A stretch of 25,814 nt of DNA, from the IMG/VR virus record IMGVR_UViG_3300017786_000119, positions 1 to 25,814 of that record; one strand, written 5' to 3'. This DNA is from a virus. The notes beneath the pieces are model-generated. The model was given only the letters and a program-made list of their open reading frames with translations, was not told the DNA's origin and searched no databases. This document shows, one piece after another, positions 506 to 11,934 of this stretch (the first letter of the stretch is position 1; every line of letters begins with the position of its first letter). A program made the translations under genes and the position numbers.

Positions 506-967
506 ATGGCAATAACAACAAATGCAATATGTGATACTTTTAAAAAAGAATTACTACAAGGAAGTCACGATTTTGATGCATCAACTGATACATACAAATT
601 AGCGATGTATACAAGTTCTGCAACTTTAGGAAAATCAACAGAAAACTACTCTACTAATCCAGGTGGTGGATCTAACACAGAGGTTACTTCAGCAAACTAC
701 ACAGCTGGTGGATCTGCTTTAGTAAACCAAGGTGTAAAAGTCTCATCTTCAGTAGCTATTACTGATTTTGCTGATTTAAGTTTTCAAAACGTAACTCTTA
801 CTGCAAGAGGTGCTTTAATTTATAACACAACTACAAACGGTGGTTCGAATACTACTGATGCAGTTGCTGTATTAGATTTTGGTGGTGACAAGACTGCAAC
901 TTCTGGAACATTTACTATTCAGTTCCCAGCTTTCACAACTTCGGCAGCTATATTAAGATTAGCATAA
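506..967 (+). CDS. Small virion structural protein of unknown role
   Basis: A protein of 153 residues, rich in Thr, Ser, Ala, Asn and Gly, with alternating beta-type patterns and no enzyme motif. It opens with a short helix (AICDTFKKELLQG) followed by DTYKLAMYTSSATLG, and its C-terminal half contains LTARGALIYNTTTNGG and VAVLDFGGDKTATSG. This looks like a family of roughly 150-residue proteins that recurs beside tail genes in marine phages. I believe it is structural (tail or head decoration), but no function is proven. A strong ribosome site (AAGGAGA) lies just upstream. It sits between the adaptor and the tail proteins. Confidence 0.6.
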   Translation: MAITTNAICDTFKKELLQGSHDFDASTDTYKLAMYTSSATLGKSTENYSTNPGGGSNTEVTSANYTAGGSALVNQGVKVSSSVAITDFADLSFQNVTLTARGALIYNTTTNGGSNTTDAVAVLDFGGDKTATSGTFTIQFPAFTTSAAILRLA

Positions 968-984
968 TTTGAGGTCCTGGAGCT

Positions 985-2346
985 ATGGCAGAGTATACTT
1001 ATACAGTAACCGTAGCTTCAGGTAACCTATACGGTGGTGGAACTGGTAACGTTTATTATTTAAACGGTGCTAGAAATGCAACTGGTCCTGGAACTGTAAA
1101 TTGGGTTCAAGGTGGAACCCTAAGATTTGAACAAAGTGCTGTATCAAATAACAATCACCCATTAATTTTTTCTACAACTACAAGTAGAGATCAATACCTT
1201 ACATCAGGGGTAACCTATTATTTAGATGGTGCCTCTAACTATGCAAGCTACGTAAACACAACAAGCTTTAATGCTGCTACTACTCGTTATGTAGAAATAA
1301 CACCATCTTCATCAACTGATTTTTATTATCTTTGTTATGTTCATGGTATTGGCATGGGTGGAATATTTGATATTGAATCAAATGTTTGGGGTGGACTATC
1401 TTGGGGTAATAGTGTTTGGGGAGACCAAGGACACATTGATGTATCAGTAACAGGAATATCATTAACATCAACTATTGGAAATGAAACTCACGTAATTGAT
1501 CATCAAGTAACTGCAGTTGGGCAACAACTAACTTCTACTATAGGTAGTGCAGCAGGAGGTACTTCAGCTTTAGTCTCAGTAACAGGAAGTTTAGAGTCTA
1601 TGGCAGTTGGACAAACTGTTGTAGGTATTGGTGCAATTACTTCTGGAATTTCAATGTCTTCTTCTATTGGAGCTACAACAGTAGATGAATCTATACTAAC
1701 TGGAGAAGGATGGGGTAGAGATGAATGGGGAAGTCTTGCTTGGGGTGTTAATTATTCAGTTGCGTTAACAGGACAAACTTTAACATCATCAATTGGAGAA
1801 GAAGCAGGATTTACTGATGTAACCGTCAGTGTTACAGGACAAACTTTAACATCTACACAAGGAATAATTTCATTAGTTGGAGATTTTGGAATAGTTGTTT
1901 TACCAGCAGAAGATCAATTAGATCTTACAATTGGTTCTGTAATTTTTGAAGCAGATGCAAATGTTACAGTAACAAGTGCAGGTTCTATGACTTCTCAAGT
2001 AGGAAATGCTGCAGGAGGTTTAAAAACACCTGTGGATGTAACTGGTATACAGATAACATCAACTTTAGGTACAATTGCCCTCGAACAAACTACTATTGAA
2101 ACAGTCACTGGACAACAGTTGACAATGTCTCTTGGCCAACATGCTGAAATTCCTGGTCAAATAATAGGTGTAGGAAGTTTACAATTAACAAGTTCCATAG
2201 GTTCTGTAACAACTTTTGGTACTGCAAATATAGACGTTACAGGCATACAAATGACTATATCTGCAGGAAGTGTTAATGTAACTCCATGGCAAGAAGTAAA
2301 TCCAGATGTAACTAATGTTTGGTCGGAGGTTGATCTAGCTGCTTAG
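985..2346 (+). CDS. Tail protein: cupredoxin-like N-terminus, then about ten VTG..LTSTIG repeats
   Basis: A protein of 453 residues in two parts. Residues 1-130 read as a beta-sandwich with the plastocyanin ligand order: H58 in NNNHPLIFS, then C117, H120 and M124 in LCYVHGIGMGG. In blue copper proteins His...Cys-x2-His-x2-4-Met binds one copper, so all four ligands appear present. Residues from about 145 to 425 hold about ten imperfect copies of a VTGxxLTSTIG unit every 20-35 residues, suggesting a repetitive beta fibre. Two Trp-Gly-rich stretches (133-147 and about 239-255) interrupt this pattern, and the end is Trp-rich (NVWSEVDLAA). A GGAG close to the ATG is the likely ribosome site. The tail-protein role is inferred from the repeats and from the fibre genes downstream. 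Copper binding is untested. Confidence 0.65.
   Translation: MAEYTYTVTVASGNLYGGGTGNVYYLNGARNATGPGTVNWVQGGTLRFEQSAVSNNNHPLIFSTTTSRDQYLTSGVTYYLDGASNYASYVNTTSFNAATTRYVEITPSSSTDFYYLCYVHGIGMGGIFDIESNVWGGLSWGNSVWGDQGHIDVSVTGISLTSTIGNETHVIDHQVTAVGQQLTSTIGSAAGGTSALVSVTGSLESMAVGQTVVGIGAITSGISMSSSIGATTVDESILTGEGWGRDEWGSLAWGVNYSVALTGQTLTSSIGEEAGFTDVTVSVTGQTLTSTQGIISLVGDFGIVVLPAEDQLDLTIGSVIFEADANVTVTSAGSMTSQVGNAAGGLKTPVDVTGIQITSTLGTIALEQTTIETVTGQQLTMSLGQHAEIPGQIIGVGSLQLTSSIGSVTTFGTANIDVTGIQMTISAGSVNVTPWQEVNPDVTNVWSEVDLAA
1768..1853 (+). repeat. Exact 20-base direct repeat within the tail-fibre repeat array
   Basis: Bases 1768-1787 and 1834-1853 are identical (beginning acaggacaaa and ending ttaacatc). 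They are 66 bases apart, so they are in frame, and both encode TGQTLTS. They are the least diverged pair of the roughly ten VTGxxLTSTIG protein repeats, which suggests recent unit duplication or recombination within the gene. Confidence 0.8.
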
Positions 2347-2384: not shown

Positions 2385-3398
2385 ATGGCATCAAGTTATT
2401 CGACAGATCTTAAACTAGAACTTATGGTTACTGGTGAAAATGCTGGTACATGGGGAGATAAAACAAACGCAAATTTAAATTTAGTACAACAAGCTATAGC
2501 AGGTTTTGAAGCTGTAACAGTAAATGGTACAGGTGCTACTGCATTAGCTATGACTGATGCAACTATTTCAAATGCAAGAAATGCAGTTGTAAAATTAACT
2601 GGTACAATAACCGGAAATATTGATGTAACAATTCCAAATTCAATTGAAAAAACATATGTAATTCAAAATGGAACAACAGGTGCTCACACAGTTACATTTA
2701 AAACTGTTGGTGGAACTGGATTTACTTTTTCAGCTACAGAAAAAAATATAGCTTTATGTTATTCAGATGGAACTAATATTGTAGAAATTTCTAATCAATT
2801 AACAGGACTTACAGTTGGGACGGATGTTCAAGCTTATGATGCTGGTCTTACAGATATTGCAGGATTAGCTACCACAGATTCAAACATAATTGTTGGAAGC
2901 GGATCTAATTGGGTTGCTGAAACAGGAGCTACTGCTAGAACTTCTTTAGGATTAGGAACTGCATCAGATGTTCAATTTGATTCTTTTGGTGTAGGTACAG
3001 CAGCCTCAGGAACAGCTGGTGAAATTAGAGCTACTAATGATGTTACTGCATTTTACTCTGATAGAAGATTAAAAAATATTTCTGGTAATATACCAAATTC
3101 TTTAGAAAAAATTTTAAGTTTGAATGGTGTTCATTATACAAATAATGAAGTTGCACACAAACATGGTTATTCAAATACTAACAGACAAGTAGGAGTAATA
3201 GCTCAAGAAGTAGAAAGTATTCTTCCTGAAATAGTTAAACCAGCTCCTTTTGATATAGGTCAAAAAGAAGATGGATCTGAATACTCAATTTCTGGAGAAA
3301 ACTACAAAACAGTTCAATACGAAAAGTTAGTTCCTTTATTAATTGAAGGCATAAAAGAACTAAACAAAAAAATAGAGGAGATGAAAAATAATGGATAA
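2385..3398 (+). CDS. Tail fibre with C-terminal S74 self-cleaving chaperone domain
   Basis: A protein of 337 residues. The N-terminus (TDLKLELMVTGENAGTWGDK) is a common phage fibre opening. The middle, residues 138-200, has the fibre-type sequence VQAYDAGLTDIAGL followed by ARTSLGLGTASD. The end, from about 222, is a Peptidase_S74 intramolecular chaperone. It shows the SDRRLK motif (S225, D226, K230), then QVGVIAQEVESILPE, YKTVQYEKLVPLLIEGIKEL and a terminal coiled coil. In characterised members the domain trimerises the fibre and then cuts itself off at the Ser-Asp bond using the Ser/Lys pair. Both residues are present, so cleavage here after S225 is likely, releasing about 112 residues. AGGAGA precedes the start. 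It overlaps the next gene by 8 bases. Confidence 0.88.
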   Translation: MASSYSTDLKLELMVTGENAGTWGDKTNANLNLVQQAIAGFEAVTVNGTGATALAMTDATISNARNAVVKLTGTITGNIDVTIPNSIEKTYVIQNGTTGAHTVTFKTVGGTGFTFSATEKNIALCYSDGTNIVEISNQLTGLTVGTDVQAYDAGLTDIAGLATTDSNIIVGSGSNWVAETGATARTSLGLGTASDVQFDSFGVGTAASGTAGEIRATNDVTAFYSDRRLKNISGNIPNSLEKILSLNGVHYTNNEVAHKHGYSNTNRQVGVIAQEVESILPEIVKPAPFDIGQKEDGSEYSISGENYKTVQYEKLVPLLIEGIKELNKKIEEMKNNG

Positions 3399-4407
3399 TC
3401 ACACATGGGAAATTCTTTCTCTTTATACTATTCCAAGTAAAGACGGTTTAACAAATATTGTTGATAAAATTAATTGGAGATTTCAAATTACAGAAGATAA
3501 ATACTATGGTGATGTGTATGGTCACACAAAACTTCCAGCACCTACAGGTGGTTCTTTTACAGCTTATGATGATTTAACAGAAGAAACAATTATTAATTGG
3601 GTTAAAGAACATGAAGATGGTGATGCAATTATTGCTCAAGCTACAGCTAAATTGGAAAAAAATAAAGCTCCATCAATGGTAGAAAAAAATCCACCTTGGA
3701 CATATCCTATAACTACAGATGGTACAGAAGAGTATATGGTTGTTATAGATAATTTACCAAATGACTTACAAAAAATATATGGCCCTTTAAGATGGAACTC
3801 AGTAAAAATAAATGAAGGTTTAAAACTAAGAGGTTTTGATGATTTATCTGTTCCAGATACTATGATTGCTTTTAGAAAAGGTTTAATACCTTCAGACGAA
3901 CCGTTAGTTCTTAAAGATAATGTTAAGATTTATAAAGTTCAAGAACAAGCACAACCTACTTTTGATGAGCTGACTCAAATTAGAGAAAATTTAACTTATG
4001 ATACTTCATCTGGAATATGTGTAGGAACTTACAATATAGTTAATAAATCTTTGGATGAAGTTAAAGCATCGGTTAAAGAAAGAGCTAAAGAAGAAAGAAT
4101 AGGTTTATCTTTTCAAACACATACAATGTCTTTAAACGGAACTGATCATAAAGTTAACATAGAAGAACAAAGCAATATTACTACTAATAATAGAGCTAGT
4201 GTAATGAGTGATTCAGATACGGTCAATTGGAAACTAGAAGATTCTTGGATTGTTGCAACTAAAGCTGATTTAATGTCTATTAATAATTTTGTAATGTCCA
4301 AAAGACAAGAAATTTTTGATGGAGAACACACTAGAAGTCAAGAGATTGATGCGTGTACTACAACAGATGAATTAAAAACTATTTATAACTCAATTACGGT
4401 ATTATAA
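3391..4407 (+). CDS. Tail-fibre-associated protein with DUF4376-like C-terminus
   Basis: A protein of 338 residues. The first about 90 residues (MDNHTWEILSLYTIP, then LTEETIINWVKEH) resemble a small domain often found at the start of short marine-phage virion proteins. The C-terminal third, from about residue 215 to 333, fits the DUF4376 pattern of many phage fibre and fibre-assembly proteins. It shows NTTNNRASVMSDSD-like spacing, then NWKLEDSWIVA, a helix with MSKRQEIFDGEHTRSQEID, and ACTTTDELKTI. The start overlaps the end of the S74 fibre gene, which suggests coupled translation and a role with that fibre. No enzyme motif was seen. The function (baseplate or fibre component, or assembly factor) is inferred. 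Confidence 0.55.
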   Translation: MDNHTWEILSLYTIPSKDGLTNIVDKINWRFQITEDKYYGDVYGHTKLPAPTGGSFTAYDDLTEETIINWVKEHEDGDAIIAQATAKLEKNKAPSMVEKNPPWTYPITTDGTEEYMVVIDNLPNDLQKIYGPLRWNSVKINEGLKLRGFDDLSVPDTMIAFRKGLIPSDEPLVLKDNVKIYKVQEQAQPTFDELTQIRENLTYDTSSGICVGTYNIVNKSLDEVKASVKERAKEERIGLSFQTHTMSLNGTDHKVNIEEQSNITTNNRASVMSDSDTVNWKLEDSWIVATKADLMSINNFVMSKRQEIFDGEHTRSQEIDACTTTDELKTIYNSITVL

Positions 4408-5120: not shown

Positions 5121-6059
5121 ATGAATACTACTTTTATTCTTACGGGAGGAGCGGGAAGAACTGTTTGCGCTATTCCAGCTTTAGAAAAATATGCAAGATT
5201 AAATCCTAACGATGATTTTAAAATAATAACACACGGGTGGGATGTATTTTTTTGGAGCAATCCAATCTTACAACAAAAAACATTTAATCAAAATCAAAAA
5301 GGTTTATTCGACATTATAATTAAAAACAGTAAAGTTAACATGGTAGAGCCTTACCATGTTCATGAGTTTTTTAATGAAAAGATATCTTTAATAGAAGCTT
5401 TTGATGTGTGTATTAATAATACACATGATCATTCTGATCTAAAAGATAAGGGCTATCTCTATCTTTCTGAGTATGAAAAAAAATCAGCTAAACAGTATGT
5501 TAAAGAAGAAAAATTAAAAAAAAGAAAAAAGTATGTTGTAATGACACAACCTTACGGTTCGGGAGTTGAGATACTAGATGGTGCTCCACATGATGATACA
5601 AGTAGAAGTTTAGAGCATGATCATTACCATGAACTTCTTAATTATTTAAAAGATGATTCTGTAGTGTTATATGCAAGCCACGACAAATTTAAAAGAACAG
5701 GAGACGACTCGGTTTCTTTTGAAAACATACATCCTTTACTTCCTTATTTAAGAATTATGATGGCTTTAATTTCTGAATGCGATTATTTTATTGGTTGCGA
5801 TTCTTTAGGACAACATATTGCAAAAGCATTTGGTAAAAAGGGGTTAATAATTATGGGTGCTACAGGAGATGTTTGTTTTAGTTATCCAAAAGATTTCACT
5901 ATATATAGAAAAGCAATTCCAAAATTTTTTCCTTGGAGACTAGCAGACCCTGACGCAATGTTTGCTGCTAGATTAAATGATAATATGATGCAATTTAATC
6001 AAGAACAGAAAAAAGAAATAAATAATATTATTGATAAAGAATTAAGACATAAATTTTAA
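5121..6059 (+). CDS. GT9-like (heptosyltransferase-type, GT-B) glycosyltransferase
   Basis: A protein of 312 residues. The N-terminus has a Gly-rich loop after the first strand (ILTGGAGRTVCAIPALEKYA), and the C-terminal half has the pattern ISECDYFIGCDSLGQHIAKAFG followed by LIIMGATGD. GT9 enzymes (ADP-heptose:LPS heptosyltransferases) show the same arrangement: a GD/GG loop with a downstream PAL helix, and later a D-S-x-x-x-H-x-A-x-A donor-site motif before a VxLFG strand. The donor sugar and acceptor cannot be read from the sequence. There is no Shine-Dalgarno sequence; a possible promoter lies directly upstream. It is the first gene of a six-gene cassette and its TAA overlaps the ATG of the next gene. 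Confidence 0.65.
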   Translation: MNTTFILTGGAGRTVCAIPALEKYARLNPNDDFKIITHGWDVFFWSNPILQQKTFNQNQKGLFDIIIKNSKVNMVEPYHVHEFFNEKISLIEAFDVCINNTHDHSDLKDKGYLYLSEYEKKSAKQYVKEEKLKKRKKYVVMTQPYGSGVEILDGAPHDDTSRSLEHDHYHELLNYLKDDSVVLYASHDKFKRTGDDSVSFENIHPLLPYLRIMMALISECDYFIGCDSLGQHIAKAFGKKGLIIMGATGDVCFSYPKDFTIYRKAIPKFFPWRLADPDAMFAARLNDNMMQFNQEQKKEINNIIDKELRHKF

Positions 6060-6598
6060 TGAAAACAGTTGTATTGGATAATCTTATTTCAGAAAAAGAA
6101 TTATTTTTTATGTACAATGAAATTATAAACACCCCTAATTGGAGAGTTAATAACGCATCTACTGAGCAACGTGGTTTTCTAACAGGTCCAATACTAGTAG
6201 TTAAAAAAACAGAAAATTCAATGGTAGAACATTATCCTTTTTTAATTTGGGGACAAGTTTTAGTTCTTAGAATCGCTAAATTACTTGAAGAAAAAAATAT
6301 AGGAATACCAACTGAGTTAAATAGGATGTGGTTTAACACTACATACAACGGAAAGAAAACTCAACATTGGCTTCATAATGATGGTCATGGAGATGCAGAA
6401 ACAAAATCAATTGTTGTATTCATGACACCTGTTTGGCAGCCAGATTGGAGGGGGTCTTTTTATATTGATGGTGAAGAACATAAGTATAAACCAGGTAGTG
6501 CTATTATATTTGATTCAAAAGAATTTCATCGAGGTGAATCTCCTGAGTCAGAAACATATAACTGGCAAAGAATGGTGTGTAATATTTTAGTTAAATGA
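6059..6598 (+). CDS. 2OG-Fe(II) oxygenase, prolyl-4-hydroxylase-like
   Basis: A protein of 179 residues with the double-stranded beta-helix signature. The iron ligands are H106 and D108 (WLHNDGHG) and distal H157 (EFHRGE), with R171 (WQRMVCNIL) as the 2-oxoglutarate carboxylate-binding residue. GSAIIFDS before the distal His is typical. Such enzymes hydroxylate a carbon on a peptide, sugar or small molecule, using O2 and 2-oxoglutarate. They are frequent in marine phage genomes and their substrates are mostly unknown. The start uses the TAATG overlap with the glycosyltransferase gene, and the end overlaps the sulfotransferase start as ATGA, so the three are probably translated together. Confidence 0.85.
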   Translation: MKTVVLDNLISEKELFFMYNEIINTPNWRVNNASTEQRGFLTGPILVVKKTENSMVEHYPFLIWGQVLVLRIAKLLEEKNIGIPTELNRMWFNTTYNGKKTQHWLHNDGHGDAETKSIVVFMTPVWQPDWRGSFYIDGEEHKYKPGSAIIFDSKEFHRGESPESETYNWQRMVCNILVK

Positions 6599-7371
6599 AA
6601 AAACATTATTTTATATCAGGGTTACCTAGATCAGGGTCAACTTTATTAACAGCTATTTTAAATCAAAACCCAAACTTTTATTCTGATATAGCATCTCCGT
6701 TACAAGATATGTTAGAAAATACTATTACATATATGTCGGAAACAGATTATTCTATAAATATAAATTCAGAACAACGTGAAAATGTTTTAAAACATATTGT
6801 TGAGGGGTATTATAAAGATACTGTAAATGAAACAATATTTGATTCATCAAGAGCATGGACAGGAAATACTTCGTTACTTAAATCATTATTTCCATATACT
6901 AAAATTATTTGCTGTGTACGAGATATAAATTGGATACTTGATTCTTTTGAAAAAGTTTTTAATAAAAATATTTATTACAAAAATTTCTTTTTTGGTAAGG
7001 AGGCAGAACCTTCTGTTGTAACCAGATGTAAATCTTTAATGGATGTAGAAAAAGAAGGACAAGTAATAAAACCTTGGCTATGGTTAAAGGAAGGTCTTTG
7101 TTTAAATAAAGATATGATTCATTTAATAGAATACAACGATCTTTGTTTGGAACCTGAAAAAACAATTAAAGGTGTTTATGATTTTATTGGTTACCCATAT
7201 TTTTATCATGATTTTAATAATGTAGAATATTCAAATAATTTATTTGATCTACATATTAACACACCTAATTTACATAAAGTAACAGGAAAAGTAGAATATA
7301 AACCTAGAGAAATTTTACTACCCTATGAGGTTACTCAAACATATAAAGGAATGGAATTTTGGAGAAAGTAA
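6595..7371 (+). CDS. PAPS-dependent sulfotransferase
   Basis: A protein of 258 residues. The 5'-phosphosulfate-binding loop is clear at the N-terminus: FISGLPRSGSTLL (residues 7-18, PRSGST at 11-16). The 3'-phosphate-binding element follows as CCVRDINWILDSF, with R109 and S117 spaced R-x7-S as in known sulfotransferases. Family members transfer the sulfuryl group from PAPS to a hydroxyl or amine on sugars, proteins or small molecules. Both PAPS sites are intact, so activity is plausible; the acceptor is unknown. The next gene begins with a kinase domain of the type that makes PAPS. Its start overlaps the upstream oxygenase (ATGA), and its stop directly abuts the next ATG. Confidence 0.85.
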   Translation: MKKHYFISGLPRSGSTLLTAILNQNPNFYSDIASPLQDMLENTITYMSETDYSININSEQRENVLKHIVEGYYKDTVNETIFDSSRAWTGNTSLLKSLFPYTKIICCVRDINWILDSFEKVFNKNIYYKNFFFGKEAEPSVVTRCKSLMDVEKEGQVIKPWLWLKEGLCLNKDMIHLIEYNDLCLEPEKTIKGVYDFIGYPYFYHDFNNVEYSNNLFDLHINTPNLHKVTGKVEYKPREILLPYEVTQTYKGMEFWRK

Positions 7372-8310
7372 ATGAAAATTATTTTAATAATGGGATTACC
7401 GGGATCTGGCAAAACTACTTTAGCAAATAAGCTAGGCCCGATGCTTAATGCAAAAATATTAAACGCAGACGAAGTAAGAAAAAAATTTGATGATTGGGAT
7501 TTTTCTCACGAAGGTAGAGTAAGACAAGCCAAAAGGATGGCAACTTTAGCAAATAAATTTAAAAATCGAGGAGAGTATGTTGTGGCAGATTTTATTTGCC
7601 CCACACTAGAGACAAGAGAATTGTTTCCTGCTGATTATATAGTTTGGGTAAATACAATAAAAGAAGGACGTTTTGAAGATACTAATAAGATGTTTGTAAA
7701 GCCTGAAGTATTTGATCTTCAAGTAACAACACAAGATGTTGAAAAATGGGTATTAGAAATAACATCCAATATAAATAAAAATTATAAAATTTACAAAAAC
7801 TTTGTAAGTATTGAAGAGTGTAATATTTTATCTAATTGGATTATAGAAAATAAGGACGATACTTTTTTTAAGGATGCTAAAATGAAAGGTAAAAGATTAA
7901 CTACTAGATACTCTGATAACTTTGTATTTCCTAAACTTGCTTATGGAATACAAAATAAAATTATTAAAAAATTAAATTTAAAAAATTATTATTTAGCTAA
8001 TTTTAAAGATGGTATGGTTGCTAGTTATGCAGAGCCTGGAGATACCTGTTATATACATAAAGACCCAGTTTGGGTAGAAGATACTATAACACTTCATTGT
8101 AATATAAAATTATCAGATCATATGGGAGGTAGTCCTATCATTGAAGGTAAAGAAATAAATTTAAACAAAGGAGATATGTGGCTTTATCCTGTATCTGATG
8201 TTAATCACGGATCTAATATAGTTAAGGGAATTAGTCCAAGAACATTATGGATATTTGGTTTTTCTATACTCAAACAAAATATAAAAGAAGTTATGAATAA
8301 TGATTGTTGA
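7372..8310 (+). CDS. Fusion: APS-kinase-like P-loop kinase plus 2OG-Fe(II) oxygenase
   Basis: A protein of 312 residues in two domains. Residues 1 to about 130 are a P-loop kinase: Walker A GLPGSGKTT (8-16), NADEVR (31-36), DWDFSHEGRVRQAKRM (41-56), VVADFICPT (70-78) and FEDTNKMF (101-108). These align in order with CysC, which has DGDNVR, FS..DR..N.RR., and an AFISP strand, though the first motif is NADEVR, not DGDN. APS kinase makes PAPS from APS and ATP. Residues from about 138 are a 2OG-Fe(II) oxygenase with H229/D231 (YIHKDP), distal H279 (VNHGSN) and R290 (SPRTLW). The stretch between domains is short and the frame is continuous, so this is a true fusion. Kinase substrate identity is uncertain; gene order beside a sulfotransferase favours APS. 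The 3' end overlaps the next gene by 11 bases. Confidence 0.8.
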   Translation: MKIILIMGLPGSGKTTLANKLGPMLNAKILNADEVRKKFDDWDFSHEGRVRQAKRMATLANKFKNRGEYVVADFICPTLETRELFPADYIVWVNTIKEGRFEDTNKMFVKPEVFDLQVTTQDVEKWVLEITSNINKNYKIYKNFVSIEECNILSNWIIENKDDTFFKDAKMKGKRLTTRYSDNFVFPKLAYGIQNKIIKKLNLKNYYLANFKDGMVASYAEPGDTCYIHKDPVWVEDTITLHCNIKLSDHMGGSPIIEGKEINLNKGDMWLYPVSDVNHGSNIVKGISPRTLWIFGFSILKQNIKEVMNNDC

Positions 8311-9127
8311 TAAAAATAATTATAATTTAGATGTATTTACAAGTTCTAAAACTGTTGGTAACTATTGGAAAGATTGTGAAAAAGAATGTAAATTTTTAGA
8401 ACTATTTAAAGATTGTTCTATTGATAGTGTTAACTGTTTTTTTGATGAGGCTCGAGGTAATGTTTTAACTTTAATATCAAAAGAAAATACTGAGGAAGAT
8501 AATTTAAGAGCAACAATTAATTTTAATCAAGACATATCTTTTTTTGTAAATAATTCTTGGGAAGATTATCAAAGAGAGTGCATGCTTTTAGAGTCAATTA
8601 AAAATTGTTCTATTGAAGGTGTTGTTTGTGAGTTTGGTGTATTAAAAGGTAAAACATTAAATTTAATAGCAAAAAACTTTCTTAACCAAAAAGTTTATGG
8701 CTTTGATAGTTTTGAAGGATTACCTGAGGATTGGCATCTTACAGATGAAAACGTATTTGAAAAAGGTAGAATGAAAATAAATAGTTTACCTAAAGTTAAT
8801 TCTAATGTGGAGCTGGTGGTGGGGTGGTATCATAAAACGATACCCGAGTGGAAGAAAACATTTAAAGATAATATTAAATTTATTCATATTGATTGCGATT
8901 TGTACAGTAGTACGTCAACAATTTTTGAACAGTTAAACAATCAAATAGTAAATGGTACTGTAATTCAGTTTGATGATTTTTATAATTGGAAAAATTTATC
9001 TAATTATACAAAATGGAGACAGGGTATATATAAAGCATTACTAGAGTGGACAGAAAAATTTAATAGAAAATTTACTGTCGTTGGAAGAAGCAATCATGTT
9101 CAAACTACAATAAAAATAATTCACTAA
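8300..9127 (+). CDS. TylF-like SAM-dependent methyltransferase with duplicated N-terminal region
   Basis: A protein of 275 residues. The class I methyltransferase core is at 105-275: motif I VVCEFGVLKGKTL (108-120), the acidic ribose-binding strand VYGFDSFEGLPEDW (132-145, D136), FIHIDCDLY (194-202) and VIQFDDFYNW (221-230, D225/D226). This is the layout of macrocin O-methyltransferase (TylF) relatives, which methylate sugar hydroxyls. Residues 21-61 are a second, degraded copy of 85-125 (19 of 41 identical), in which the SAM loop has become FFDEARGN. There is one unbroken frame. The ATG at 8300 lies within the previous gene; there is no clear ribosome site. The sugar substrate is inferred from the family and from the neighbouring glycosyltransferase. 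Confidence 0.78.
   Translation: MIVDKNNYNLDVFTSSKTVGNYWKDCEKECKFLELFKDCSIDSVNCFFDEARGNVLTLISKENTEEDNLRATINFNQDISFFVNNSWEDYQRECMLLESIKNCSIEGVVCEFGVLKGKTLNLIAKNFLNQKVYGFDSFEGLPEDWHLTDENVFEKGRMKINSLPKVNSNVELVVGWYHKTIPEWKKTFKDNIKFIHIDCDLYSSTSTIFEQLNNQIVNGTVIQFDDFYNWKNLSNYTKWRQGIYKALLEWTEKFNRKFTVVGRSNHVQTTIKIIH
8360..8674 (+). repeat. Imperfect direct duplication inside the methyltransferase gene
   Basis: The segment encoding residues 21-61 (8360-8482) is repeated at residues 85-125 (8552-8674), 192 bases on. Protein identity is 19 of 41 by eye, with all positions aligned and no gaps. Shared features include W/D/EC spacing, KxCSI and VxCxF...G...L.LI.K. DNA identity is clearest at attgttctattga. 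The second copy keeps the SAM-binding loop; the first has lost it. Confidence 0.8.
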
Positions 9128-9756
9128 TGAGAAACGATATTTGGCCCTTATTCTCTAAAACAATGTATGTAACTGATGTAATACTTAATCAGGATGAGGA
9201 AAGTAAATTAAATAAAATCTATGACAATATAGAGTTTAGCAAAGCTAGGAGAAATGCAGAACATAATAAAAGTTGTGAAATATCTAAAGAGTTAAGGTTG
9301 TTTCAATGCCATCCCTTAACTTTTCTAGAAGAAAAAATAATGGAAAGATTCCATAACTTTTCTAAAAATATTATGCATTATGATAATAATTTTATAATAA
9401 CTAATTCTTGGTTTACAAAAACACATAAAGGTCAGGAAAGTATGTTACATGCACATAAAAACCATATGTACAGTATGGTGTATTATTGGGGTAACGAAGA
9501 AACTGAAGATAATAAGATTGAATTTAAAAATTACAATTCGGCAACAAGTTTTAATTTAAGCACTAAAGAAAAAAACATATATAATTCTGATGAATATGGG
9601 TTTAAGGTAAATAACGGTATGTTAATTGTTTTTCCAACAGAAGTACATCATATGATCTTAGAAAATAAAAATAACAGCATTAGAAAATCAATGGCTATGA
9701 ATCTATTACCTACTGGTACTATTGGTACGGGTGATAGTGCAGTAGAACTTAGGTAA
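9127..9756 (+). CDS. Putative 2OG-Fe(II) oxygenase, TIGR02466-like, unusual HxH site
   Basis: A protein of 209 residues. Typical family elements are SWFTKTHKGQ (94-103), HAHKNHMYSMVYYW (108-121), GMLIVFPTEVHHMI (164-177), R186 (SIRKSMAMNL) and the closing LLPTGTIGTGDS. The distal His is H174 or H175 and the 2-oxoglutarate Arg is probably R186. At the first iron site the sequence is H108-A-H110, followed by N112 and H113, where many oxygenases have HxD. Whether H110 or H113 is the second ligand cannot be settled by eye. It starts by TAATG overlap with the methyltransferase gene and is the last gene of the cassette. It is likely a hydroxylase of a protein or glycan, but an inactive or altered-metal form is possible. 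Confidence 0.65.
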   Translation: MRNDIWPLFSKTMYVTDVILNQDEESKLNKIYDNIEFSKARRNAEHNKSCEISKELRLFQCHPLTFLEEKIMERFHNFSKNIMHYDNNFIITNSWFTKTHKGQESMLHAHKNHMYSMVYYWGNEETEDNKIEFKNYNSATSFNLSTKEKNIYNSDEYGFKVNNGMLIVFPTEVHHMILENKNNSIRKSMAMNLLPTGTIGTGDSAVELR

Positions 9757-9777: not shown

Positions 9778-11934
9778 ATGCCTCTAACAAAAGTACAAAT
9801 AGCACCCGGATTTAACAAACAAGTAACCGCAACAGGCGCAGAAGGTAAGTGGACTGACGGAGACTTTGTAAGGTTTAGATATGGATTACCTGAAAAAATA
9901 GGTGGTTGGGAGCAACTTGTTAACGCATCTTTAGTAGGTGCAGCAAGAGAACAGTTTATTTGGGCTGATTTAGACGGCAGAAGATATGCTGCAATAGGCA
10001 CAAACAAAATTTTAATTATTTATTATGAAAGTGCTTTTTACGACATAACACCTTTAGGCACAGCTATTACCGGTTGTACATTCGACACTGTAAATACTTC
10101 GGCTACCGTTACTATCAACAAAGCAGCACACACATTACAACCTGGAGATCTTTTCACATTTACTTCAGTGACACCTCCAACAGGTGCTGGATACAGTTCT
10201 TCAGATTTTGAAACAAATACTTTTCAAGTAGTCACTGTTCCCGATAGTGATTCTTTTACTATTACAATGGCTAGCGCAGCAGGGACAACGGTAAACGGAA
10301 GTGGATCTGCAACAATCAATCCGTACATTAGTGCAGGTGCTTTAGGATTTACTTACGGTTTTGGTTGGGGAACAGGATTATGGGCCGGAGGACAACAAGT
10401 ATTTGGAACTCTTAACGGAAATTTATTAGATGACACAGCAGGTACTGGAGGATCTGGGACTTCGATTACACTTGCATCAACAACTGGTTTTCCAACATCA
10501 GGAACAATTAAAGTTGGAACAGAATTTATATCTTATACAGGCATATCAACAAATGATCTAACAGGGATTACCAGAGGTGCTGGAGGCACTAGATCTGCTC
10601 ATACGTCTGGGTCTGGTGTTGAATATTACACTGGTTGGGGAGAAGCTTCTTTATCTTCAAGTTTAACAATAGATCCTGCATCTTGGTCTTTAGATAATTT
10701 TGGAGAAAAATTAATAGCTACTATTAAAAATGGTAAAACATTTGAATGGAATCCAATCAACTCAAACCCTAATGCCTTAAGTACAAGAGCAACTATTGTA
10801 AGTAGTTCACCAACAGCATCTGTGATGTCTTTAGTATCGGATAGAGATAGACATTTATTAATGTTAGGTACAGAAACAACTATTGGAGATGAATCTACTC
10901 AAGACAAGATGTTTATAAGATTTAGTGACCAAGAAAATATAAGTGACTACTCACCAACTTCAGTAAACACTGCAGGTACCTTTAGAATAGATGCTGGTAC
11001 AAAAATAGTAGGAGCTGTAAAAGGAAAAGATTATACTTTTGTTTTAACTGATAACTCAGCTTACGTAATTCAATTTGTAGGACCTCCGTTTACTTTCTCA
11101 ATAAGACAAGTAGGTTCTAACTGTGGAGCAATTGGACAGCATTCTATTAAATATGTTAATGGTGCTGTTTATTGGATGGGAGAATCTGGTGGATTCTTTA
11201 CTTACGATGGTACTGTTAAATCTTTACCATGCCAAGTCGAAGACTTTGTATTCACAAATAAGGGAGATAACCTTGGAGTTAATTATCAAAACGGTGAATC
11301 AGTATATGTAGGTCTTAATCATTTATATGAAGAACTTACTTGGTTTTATCCAAAATCAGGTTCATCATTTAATGATAGATGTGTTACTTATAATTATCAA
11401 AGCGCAACTTGGACAACGGGATCCTTATCAAGGACTACTTGGACAGATGCTAATTTATATGATGTTCCTTATGCAACTGAATTTAACTCAACAACAACAC
11501 CAACCTTTCCTTTAATACAGGGTGTAACAAATATAAACGGTGGAAGTATTTATTACGCTCACGAAGTTGGAACAGATCAAGTAGATACCGCAGGTGCGAA
11601 GACTATAATCCCAGCATTTATAGAATCTGGGGACTTTAGTTTAAACCCTGACGGAACTAATGCAGAATTTTTCATGAGTATGAGAAGATTTGTACCAGAT
11701 TTTAAATTACTTCAAGGTAATGCACAAGTTACTATTCAATTAAGAGATTATCCAAGTGACGCCGAGGTATCCTCACCGCTAGGACCTTTTACAATAACAT
11801 CAACTACTGATAAGATAGACACGAGAGCTAGAGCAAGATTTGCTAGTTTAAAAATTGCAAACACTAGTACAGACGAAAATTGGAGATTTGGAACTTTTAG
11901 AGCTGATGTACAACTTGATGGTATGAGAGGATAA
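9778..11934 (+). CDS. Tail nozzle or DNA-stabilisation protein with two inserted beta domains
   Basis: A protein of 718 residues. The opening (VQIAPGFNKQVTATGAEGKW, then DGDFVRFRYGLPEKIGGWEQL and GRRYAAIGTNKIL) and later parts (VVGAVKGKD-like strands, FTYDGTVKSLPCQVEDFVF, a long beta-rich C-terminus) fit the large phage proteins that form a short-tail nozzle or close the DNA channel (P22 gp10 or T7 gp12 role). Two modules interrupt the core. Residues about 97-183 (NKAAHTLQPGDLFTF...FQVVTVPDSDSFTI) look like a small FCCH-type beta domain. Residues about 213-286 (ITLASTTGFPTSGTIKVG, LTGITRGAGGTRSAHTSG) match a module found in many unrelated phage tail proteins. An AAGG lies upstream of the ATG. 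It overlaps the next gene (TAATG). Confidence 0.6.
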   Translation: MPLTKVQIAPGFNKQVTATGAEGKWTDGDFVRFRYGLPEKIGGWEQLVNASLVGAAREQFIWADLDGRRYAAIGTNKILIIYYESAFYDITPLGTAITGCTFDTVNTSATVTINKAAHTLQPGDLFTFTSVTPPTGAGYSSSDFETNTFQVVTVPDSDSFTITMASAAGTTVNGSGSATINPYISAGALGFTYGFGWGTGLWAGGQQVFGTLNGNLLDDTAGTGGSGTSITLASTTGFPTSGTIKVGTEFISYTGISTNDLTGITRGAGGTRSAHTSGSGVEYYTGWGEASLSSSLTIDPASWSLDNFGEKLIATIKNGKTFEWNPINSNPNALSTRATIVSSSPTASVMSLVSDRDRHLLMLGTETTIGDESTQDKMFIRFSDQENISDYSPTSVNTAGTFRIDAGTKIVGAVKGKDYTFVLTDNSAYVIQFVGPPFTFSIRQVGSNCGAIGQHSIKYVNGAVYWMGESGGFFTYDGTVKSLPCQVEDFVFTNKGDNLGVNYQNGESVYVGLNHLYEELTWFYPKSGSSFNDRCVTYNYQSATWTTGSLSRTTWTDANLYDVPYATEFNSTTTPTFPLIQGVTNINGGSIYYAHEVGTDQVDTAGAKTIIPAFIESGDFSLNPDGTNAEFFMSMRRFVPDFKLLQGNAQVTIQLRDYPSDAEVSSPLGPFTITSTTDKIDTRARARFASLKIANTSTDENWRFGTFRADVQLDGMRG

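Follow-up and report, generated by a model that had tools for sequence, protein, structure and literature searches.

The window analysed here, a 25.8-kb virus record (25,814 nucleotides), carries on its + strand an open reading frame of 453 amino acids (985..2346, ATG start). Its N-terminal portion, residues 1–132 (985..1380, + strand), is a predicted cupredoxin (type 1 copper-like) domain, assigned through an AlphaFold2 model, matches in the PDB and a family profile. This domain, present in one copy in the window, is fused to a 321-aa repeat region, in which a W/G-rich linker and variable VTG-type repeats (VTGxxLTSxxG) extend over positions 1381..2343 of the same strand. Full-length relatives of the protein were gathered in a 23-sequence alignment. 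Mean identity among relatives is 0.86 over residues 1–132, compared with 0.59–0.77, depending on the region, further downstream. No signal peptide is evident by eye at the start of the sequence.

The putative copper ligands 1 to 4, all encoded on the + strand, are His58 (1156..1158, CAC), Cys117 (1333..1335, TGT), His120 (1342..1344, CAT) and Met124, the axial one (1354..1356, ATG). Reading of the sequence locates all four at the places given in the original prediction, and C117 is the single cysteine among the 453 residues of the protein.

The frame is preceded by a gene for a phrog_644 family protein of unknown function (506..967, +) and followed by one for a tail-fibre-like protein whose C-terminal domain is Peptidase_S74, an intramolecular chaperone (2385..3398, +). 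The first residues of the latter protein resemble gp69 of HTVC023P, annotated as a putative tail protein. The gene neighbourhood of the window resembles that of HTVC023P, with synteny to pelagiphage tail genes, and a 718-aa protein (9778–11934) is 50–61% identical to proteins of 023Pt_psg01, HTVC027P and HTVC023P, the latter two being Pelagibacter phages. The window comes from an ocean phage related to HTVC023P-type pelagiphages, which infect SAR11.

The corresponding gene place in the cultured pelagiphage HTVC023P is occupied by gp68, immediately upstream of gp69. This protein shares part of the linker and repeat region of the window protein and comprises VTG-type repeats only; a cupredoxin domain was not found anywhere in the HTVC023P or HTVC027P genomes. 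The same kind of gene thus exists without the domain, which makes the domain a module that such genes may carry or lack. The repeat region itself is not informed by modelling, since the full-length AlphaFold2 model of the 453-aa protein (23 sequences) reaches a pLDDT of 28.

The window domain follows the canonical H...C...H...M order, with the C-x2-H-xn-M element near its C-terminal end. Its loop is C-x2-H-x3-M. The plastocyanin loop is one residue longer (C-x2-H-x4-M) and that of amicyanin one residue shorter (C-x2-H-x2-M). A chance origin of this pattern is unlikely, because H-x30-80-C-x2-H-x2-4-M arose in 30 out of 200,000 shuffles of the window domain and in one of 73 six-frame segments of the window.

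The conservation of the ligands across the family, together with their invariance in the alignment described below, settles the question of chance. H, C, H and M are all present in 220 of the 225 family domains from the sampled loci. The five exceptions (YDYR, YDFG, KDH- twice and -SNM) have lost three or four ligands together, so that the four residues act as one unit. In an alignment of 101 sequences, 26–90% identical to the window domain, these four positions are the only invariant columns. As copies without ligands had been left out of that alignment beforehand, 220/225 is the fairer figure for conservation. The survey of homologues that the original prediction had proposed thereby shows the ligands to be conserved, the departures from the site being joint losses. 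The existence of a few family domains without the site indicates that the fold can serve without metal.

The spacing between Cys and Met varies among the 220 domains with the complete set, with C-x2-H-x2-M in 138 and C-x2-H-x3-M in 82. Each of these domains contains exactly one Cys, so its conservation does not stem from a disulfide within the domain. Furthermore, codon choice is free at the His and Cys positions, each of the two His and two Cys codons being in use (for the first His, CAT 111 and CAC 109); selection thus acts on the protein sequence, not on the DNA. In gp7 of P-HM2 (L081, frame residues 1249–1463), a baseplate protein, a ligand-less copy stands directly before an intact one, and the same holds for MED4-213 (L087). 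In one contig (L012, 2487–2843) a second copy, divergent and with the C-x2-H-x3-M spacing, sits in a frame of its own, upstream of the main one.

The AlphaFold2 model of residues 1–132, built from the 101-sequence alignment, is confident (pLDDT 89.6, pTM 0.85) and nearly all beta. H58 lies just before the strand at 60–63, C117 ends the strand at 113–117, and H120 and M124 are at the turn into the last strand, 121–131. The domain is thus predicted to be a Greek-key beta-sandwich with the Cys at a strand end and the His and Met in the next loop. A Foldseek search of the PDB returned 19 matches with E ≤ 0.001, and these as well as all of the best 50 have the cupredoxin fold, the best 50 being nitrite reductases, multicopper oxidases, AcoP, nitrosocyanin or factor VIII. 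The best 50 PDB matches by VIA-align are also cupredoxins throughout, headed by 2dv6 (Z 8.1, rmsd 2.8 over 102 residues, 16% identity) and followed by rusticyanin, small laccases and auracyanin. The structural scores are moderate (Z 7–8, TM 0.4–0.5); the weight lies in the uniform identity of the matches. The fold prediction suggested as a check in the original prediction therefore came out as a cupredoxin. In the comparison with viral models, marine phage proteins make up most of the best matches, and a giant-virus blue type 1 copper protein appears at rank 39.

At the level of sequence, the link to copper-binding cupredoxins is indirect. The window domain matched no Pfam family, and searches against Pfam, PHROGs, NCBIfam and, as a single sequence, the PDB gave nothing decisive. 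Profile matches to antibodies and to ribosomal protein L31 were taken as chance and have no bearing on the ligand motif. However, isolated domains from two Woeseiaceae contigs (L198 and L203) score 23.1 and 22.6 bits against Pfam Copper-bind, whose cut-off is 21.2 bits; in its full-protein context, the first of them stays just under the cut-off at 20.4 bits. Two further bacterial proteins, from a Prochlorococcus genome (L219) and a Bacteroidetes genome (L220), match PF00127 at 33.1 and 31.8 bits and the phage-family profile at 42.1 and 36.5 bits, over its length and with the four ligands all aligned. Through this chain the phage domain is connected with the cupredoxins that bind copper. The link rests on the intermediates, because the profile–profile comparison with canonical cupredoxins alone is weak (probability 65%, E 5.9e-5, first His unaligned); once two intermediates are added, the probability rises to 94.6%. 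The profile comparison envisaged in the original prediction thus holds through bacterial relatives, whereas the direct comparison is weak and Pfam is silent on the window domain.

The domain does exist as described; that it is widespread, occurring in hundreds of marine phages, was not seen in the original prediction. A scan of viral contigs gave 215 relatives, the best 80 of which were kept (76–100% identical). Phage records with domains 30–44% identical include the baseplate wedge gp7 of the Prochlorococcus phages P-HM1 and P-HM2 and structural proteins of S-TIM5 and S-ShM2, among others. With further queries, 190, 207 and 349 phage records were found, nearly all named as Synechococcus or Prochlorococcus phages, with a few Pelagibacter and Methylophilales phages and a few other marine records. 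Cultured phages that have the domain include S-SCSM1, the Pelagibacter phage HTVC028P and a Melnitz methylophage. In the phage collection, the annotation of the matching records is hypothetical, tail-fibre, baseplate or structural protein, and the name 'cupredoxin' is absent among the matches listed.

Homologous domains occur in gp7, gp9, tail-fibre and virion structural proteins. In the complete frames of the sampled loci the domain lies near the N terminus in 90 cases, near the C terminus in 68 and internally in 24, and eight frames hold two copies. It is N-terminal in the window protein; in baseplate and tail-fibre proteins of cyanophages it is found internally or at the C terminus. The cupredoxin domain is a detachable, exchangeable module. 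In marine bacterial relatives it is found in cadherin-, Big_9- or DUF4214-containing proteins, although short contigs in metagenome bins among these relatives may be phage-derived. Tandem pairs of cupredoxin domains stand at the N terminus of one frame in four loci (L108, L128, L156 and L167). In SAR86 and Woeseiaceae contigs (L198, L199 and L202) the domain is part of cadherin/Big_9-type proteins, possibly cell-surface copper proteins.

The placement of the domain on a phage tail protein, as originally proposed, is supported by the baseplate and tail-fibre homologues and by the position of the gene in a tail-gene cluster, and is putative for the frame at 985–2346. The nearest direct evidence for a virion location comes from cyanophage S-SCSM1, in which ORF231, annotated as 'long tail fiber proximal subunit (virion protein)', holds a domain with THPF and YYQCTNHGNMGG and all four ligands. 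Mass spectrometry detected 45 virion proteins in this phage (PMC9602691). The virion labels cover the enzymes ORF91, 213 and 214, which the mass-spectrometry study names among the detected proteins (PMC9602691), and are missing from certain obvious structural genes (211 and 245); for this reason, the labelling seems to reflect detection. In S-CREM2 a single weak match to the domain lies in gp130, which is without a virion-protein label. The homologues support the view that the window protein is a putative virion (tail/baseplate) protein.

Comparison with known systems indicates a known fold in an unexpected place, a cupredoxin on phage tail genes. The window domain has in common with the Copper-bind family of plastocyanin and azurin (PF00127) the predicted cupredoxin fold, the H...C-x2-H-xn-M order and an aromatic residue before the Cys, and the phage family is tied to it in sequence by the two pairs of bacterial relatives. 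It differs in being itself under detection, in its C-x2-H-x3-M loop, in having no evident signal peptide, in its fusion to a phage structural protein and in an insertion before the last strands in its subfamily. Soluble carriers such as plastocyanin and azurin are exported or periplasmic single-domain proteins, unlike the window domain, which is fused to repeats and encoded among tail genes. By predicted fold, ligands and sequence linkage, the phage domain is a member of the cupredoxins, and it is not a soluble carrier of the plastocyanin type. The closest structure by VIA-align is the N-terminal cupredoxin domain of Hyphomicrobium denitrificans nitrite reductase (2dv6, 6tfo), which is part of a periplasmic enzyme; identity is 16%, and the window protein lacks the enzyme domain. 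Marine phages also encode a blue-copper protein in the form of cyanophage petE plastocyanin. However, petE is a free-standing electron-carrier gene, whereas the tail domain is putatively a virion module.

The reading we favour, with a probability of roughly 0.85, is that residues 1–132 form a cupredoxin fold with an intact type 1 (blue) copper site at H58, C117, H120 and M124. Computation provides its basis: homology traced via bacterial intermediates, the fold of the model, and ligands that are kept or lost as a set. A metal-free, generic beta-sandwich (Ig-like or carbohydrate-binding) used for adhesion, with the four residues kept for packing, is improbable. Eight of the 101 members do match CBM_4_9 weakly (best E 0.0078), bacterial relatives occur in cadherin- and Big_9-containing proteins and some copies are without ligands. 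This explanation is made less likely by the joint loss of the ligands, by the lone invariant Cys, by the Copper-bind matches of relatives above the cut-off, and by the best 50 PDB matches in Foldseek and VIA-align, which are all cupredoxin-fold with zero Ig or CBM among them.

A larger, though still minor, share of the probability falls to a genuine cupredoxin fold whose H2CM site holds another metal (e.g., Zn) or is mostly empty, given folding in the cytoplasm and seawater copper that is scarce and complexed. Virion proteins are made in the cytoplasm, the window protein begins with no evident signal peptide, and type 1 sites accept Zn, Hg and Ag in vitro. However, H2CM is the copper-selective ligand set of the cupredoxin family, and copper better explains the strict conservation of the Met. 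Least likely, and very improbable, is a misread auxiliary electron carrier, a host-metabolism gene of the plastocyanin type fused by chance to a structural gene and working in the infected cell. Cyanophages such as S-SCSM1 do carry separate plastocyanin genes (petE), yet within that very genome the tail-borne domain is separate from petE and lies in a protein labelled as a virion protein. Moreover, fusions of the domain to tail and baseplate proteins take many forms, and its occurrence extends to phages of SAR11 and Methylophilales, hosts that are not phototrophs using plastocyanin.

For the favoured type 1 copper site, a mechanism can be proposed in which the domain would fold without metal in the host cytoplasm and would probably take up copper after lysis. 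Type 1 sites bind copper very tightly, so that the site could be filled at that stage. The bound metal might then lock a beta-sandwich displaying a surface that faces the host or the environment. Since hundreds of marine phages have the domain in their tail and baseplate proteins, the virions that bear it are predicted probably to carry copper. A displayed, metal-stabilised contact domain fits better than a soluble electron carrier, because the domain is an exchangeable unit on the attachment apparatus and on bacterial surface-type proteins. We think such a contact module the likeliest role, at a little under even odds, ahead of electron transfer and of docking to a host copper or redox protein, both of which seem unlikely and to an equal degree. 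The binding of trace metal, put forward in the original prediction, would be compatible with any of these roles.

If copper is bound, the virions of cyanophages, pelagiphages and methylophages would carry redox-active or structural copper on their attachment apparatus. This would bring a further metal into virion chemistry and offer a testable handle on the phage–host encounter, and marine viruses could then be a ligand pool for copper. More tentatively, and less likely than not, many of the most abundant ocean phages may bear type 1 sites loaded with copper on their tails and attach by means of them, their virions acting as a copper ligand in seawater and copper status affecting infectivity.

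The closest known idea in phages is that of iron in tail-fibre HxH motifs. Such iron-binding motifs have been described in T4 gp37 and marine phage tail fibres and are proposed to contribute to host attachment and to the cycling of metals in the sea (PMC11705849). The two cases are alike in having metal in a phage tail protein (predicted for the cupredoxin domain) and differ in that the gp37-type motifs form octahedral iron sites in fibre trimers, with no cupredoxin fold, other ligands and a different metal from the one predicted here. If tail copper is used for attachment, it would parallel, with copper, the hypothesis that tail fibres bear iron. Among the open-access papers searched, none describing a cupredoxin domain in phage tails turned up, and the words copper, cupredoxin and plastocyanin are absent from a study of HTVC023P-type genomes. 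Automatic annotation elsewhere may already mark some members of the family.

Directly after the tail-fibre-like gene, positions 3391–4407 encode a protein with DUF7936 and a weak match to DUF4376. Further downstream, among tail genes, a cassette at 5121–9756 encodes a GT9-like glycosyltransferase, a cupin-like protein, a sulfotransferase (PF13469, 1.4e-16), an APS-kinase-like protein with a long C-terminal extension, a TylF-type methyltransferase and a 2OG-Fe(II) oxygenase. The kinase–sulfotransferase pair suggests the sulfation of a target on the virion or the host surface.
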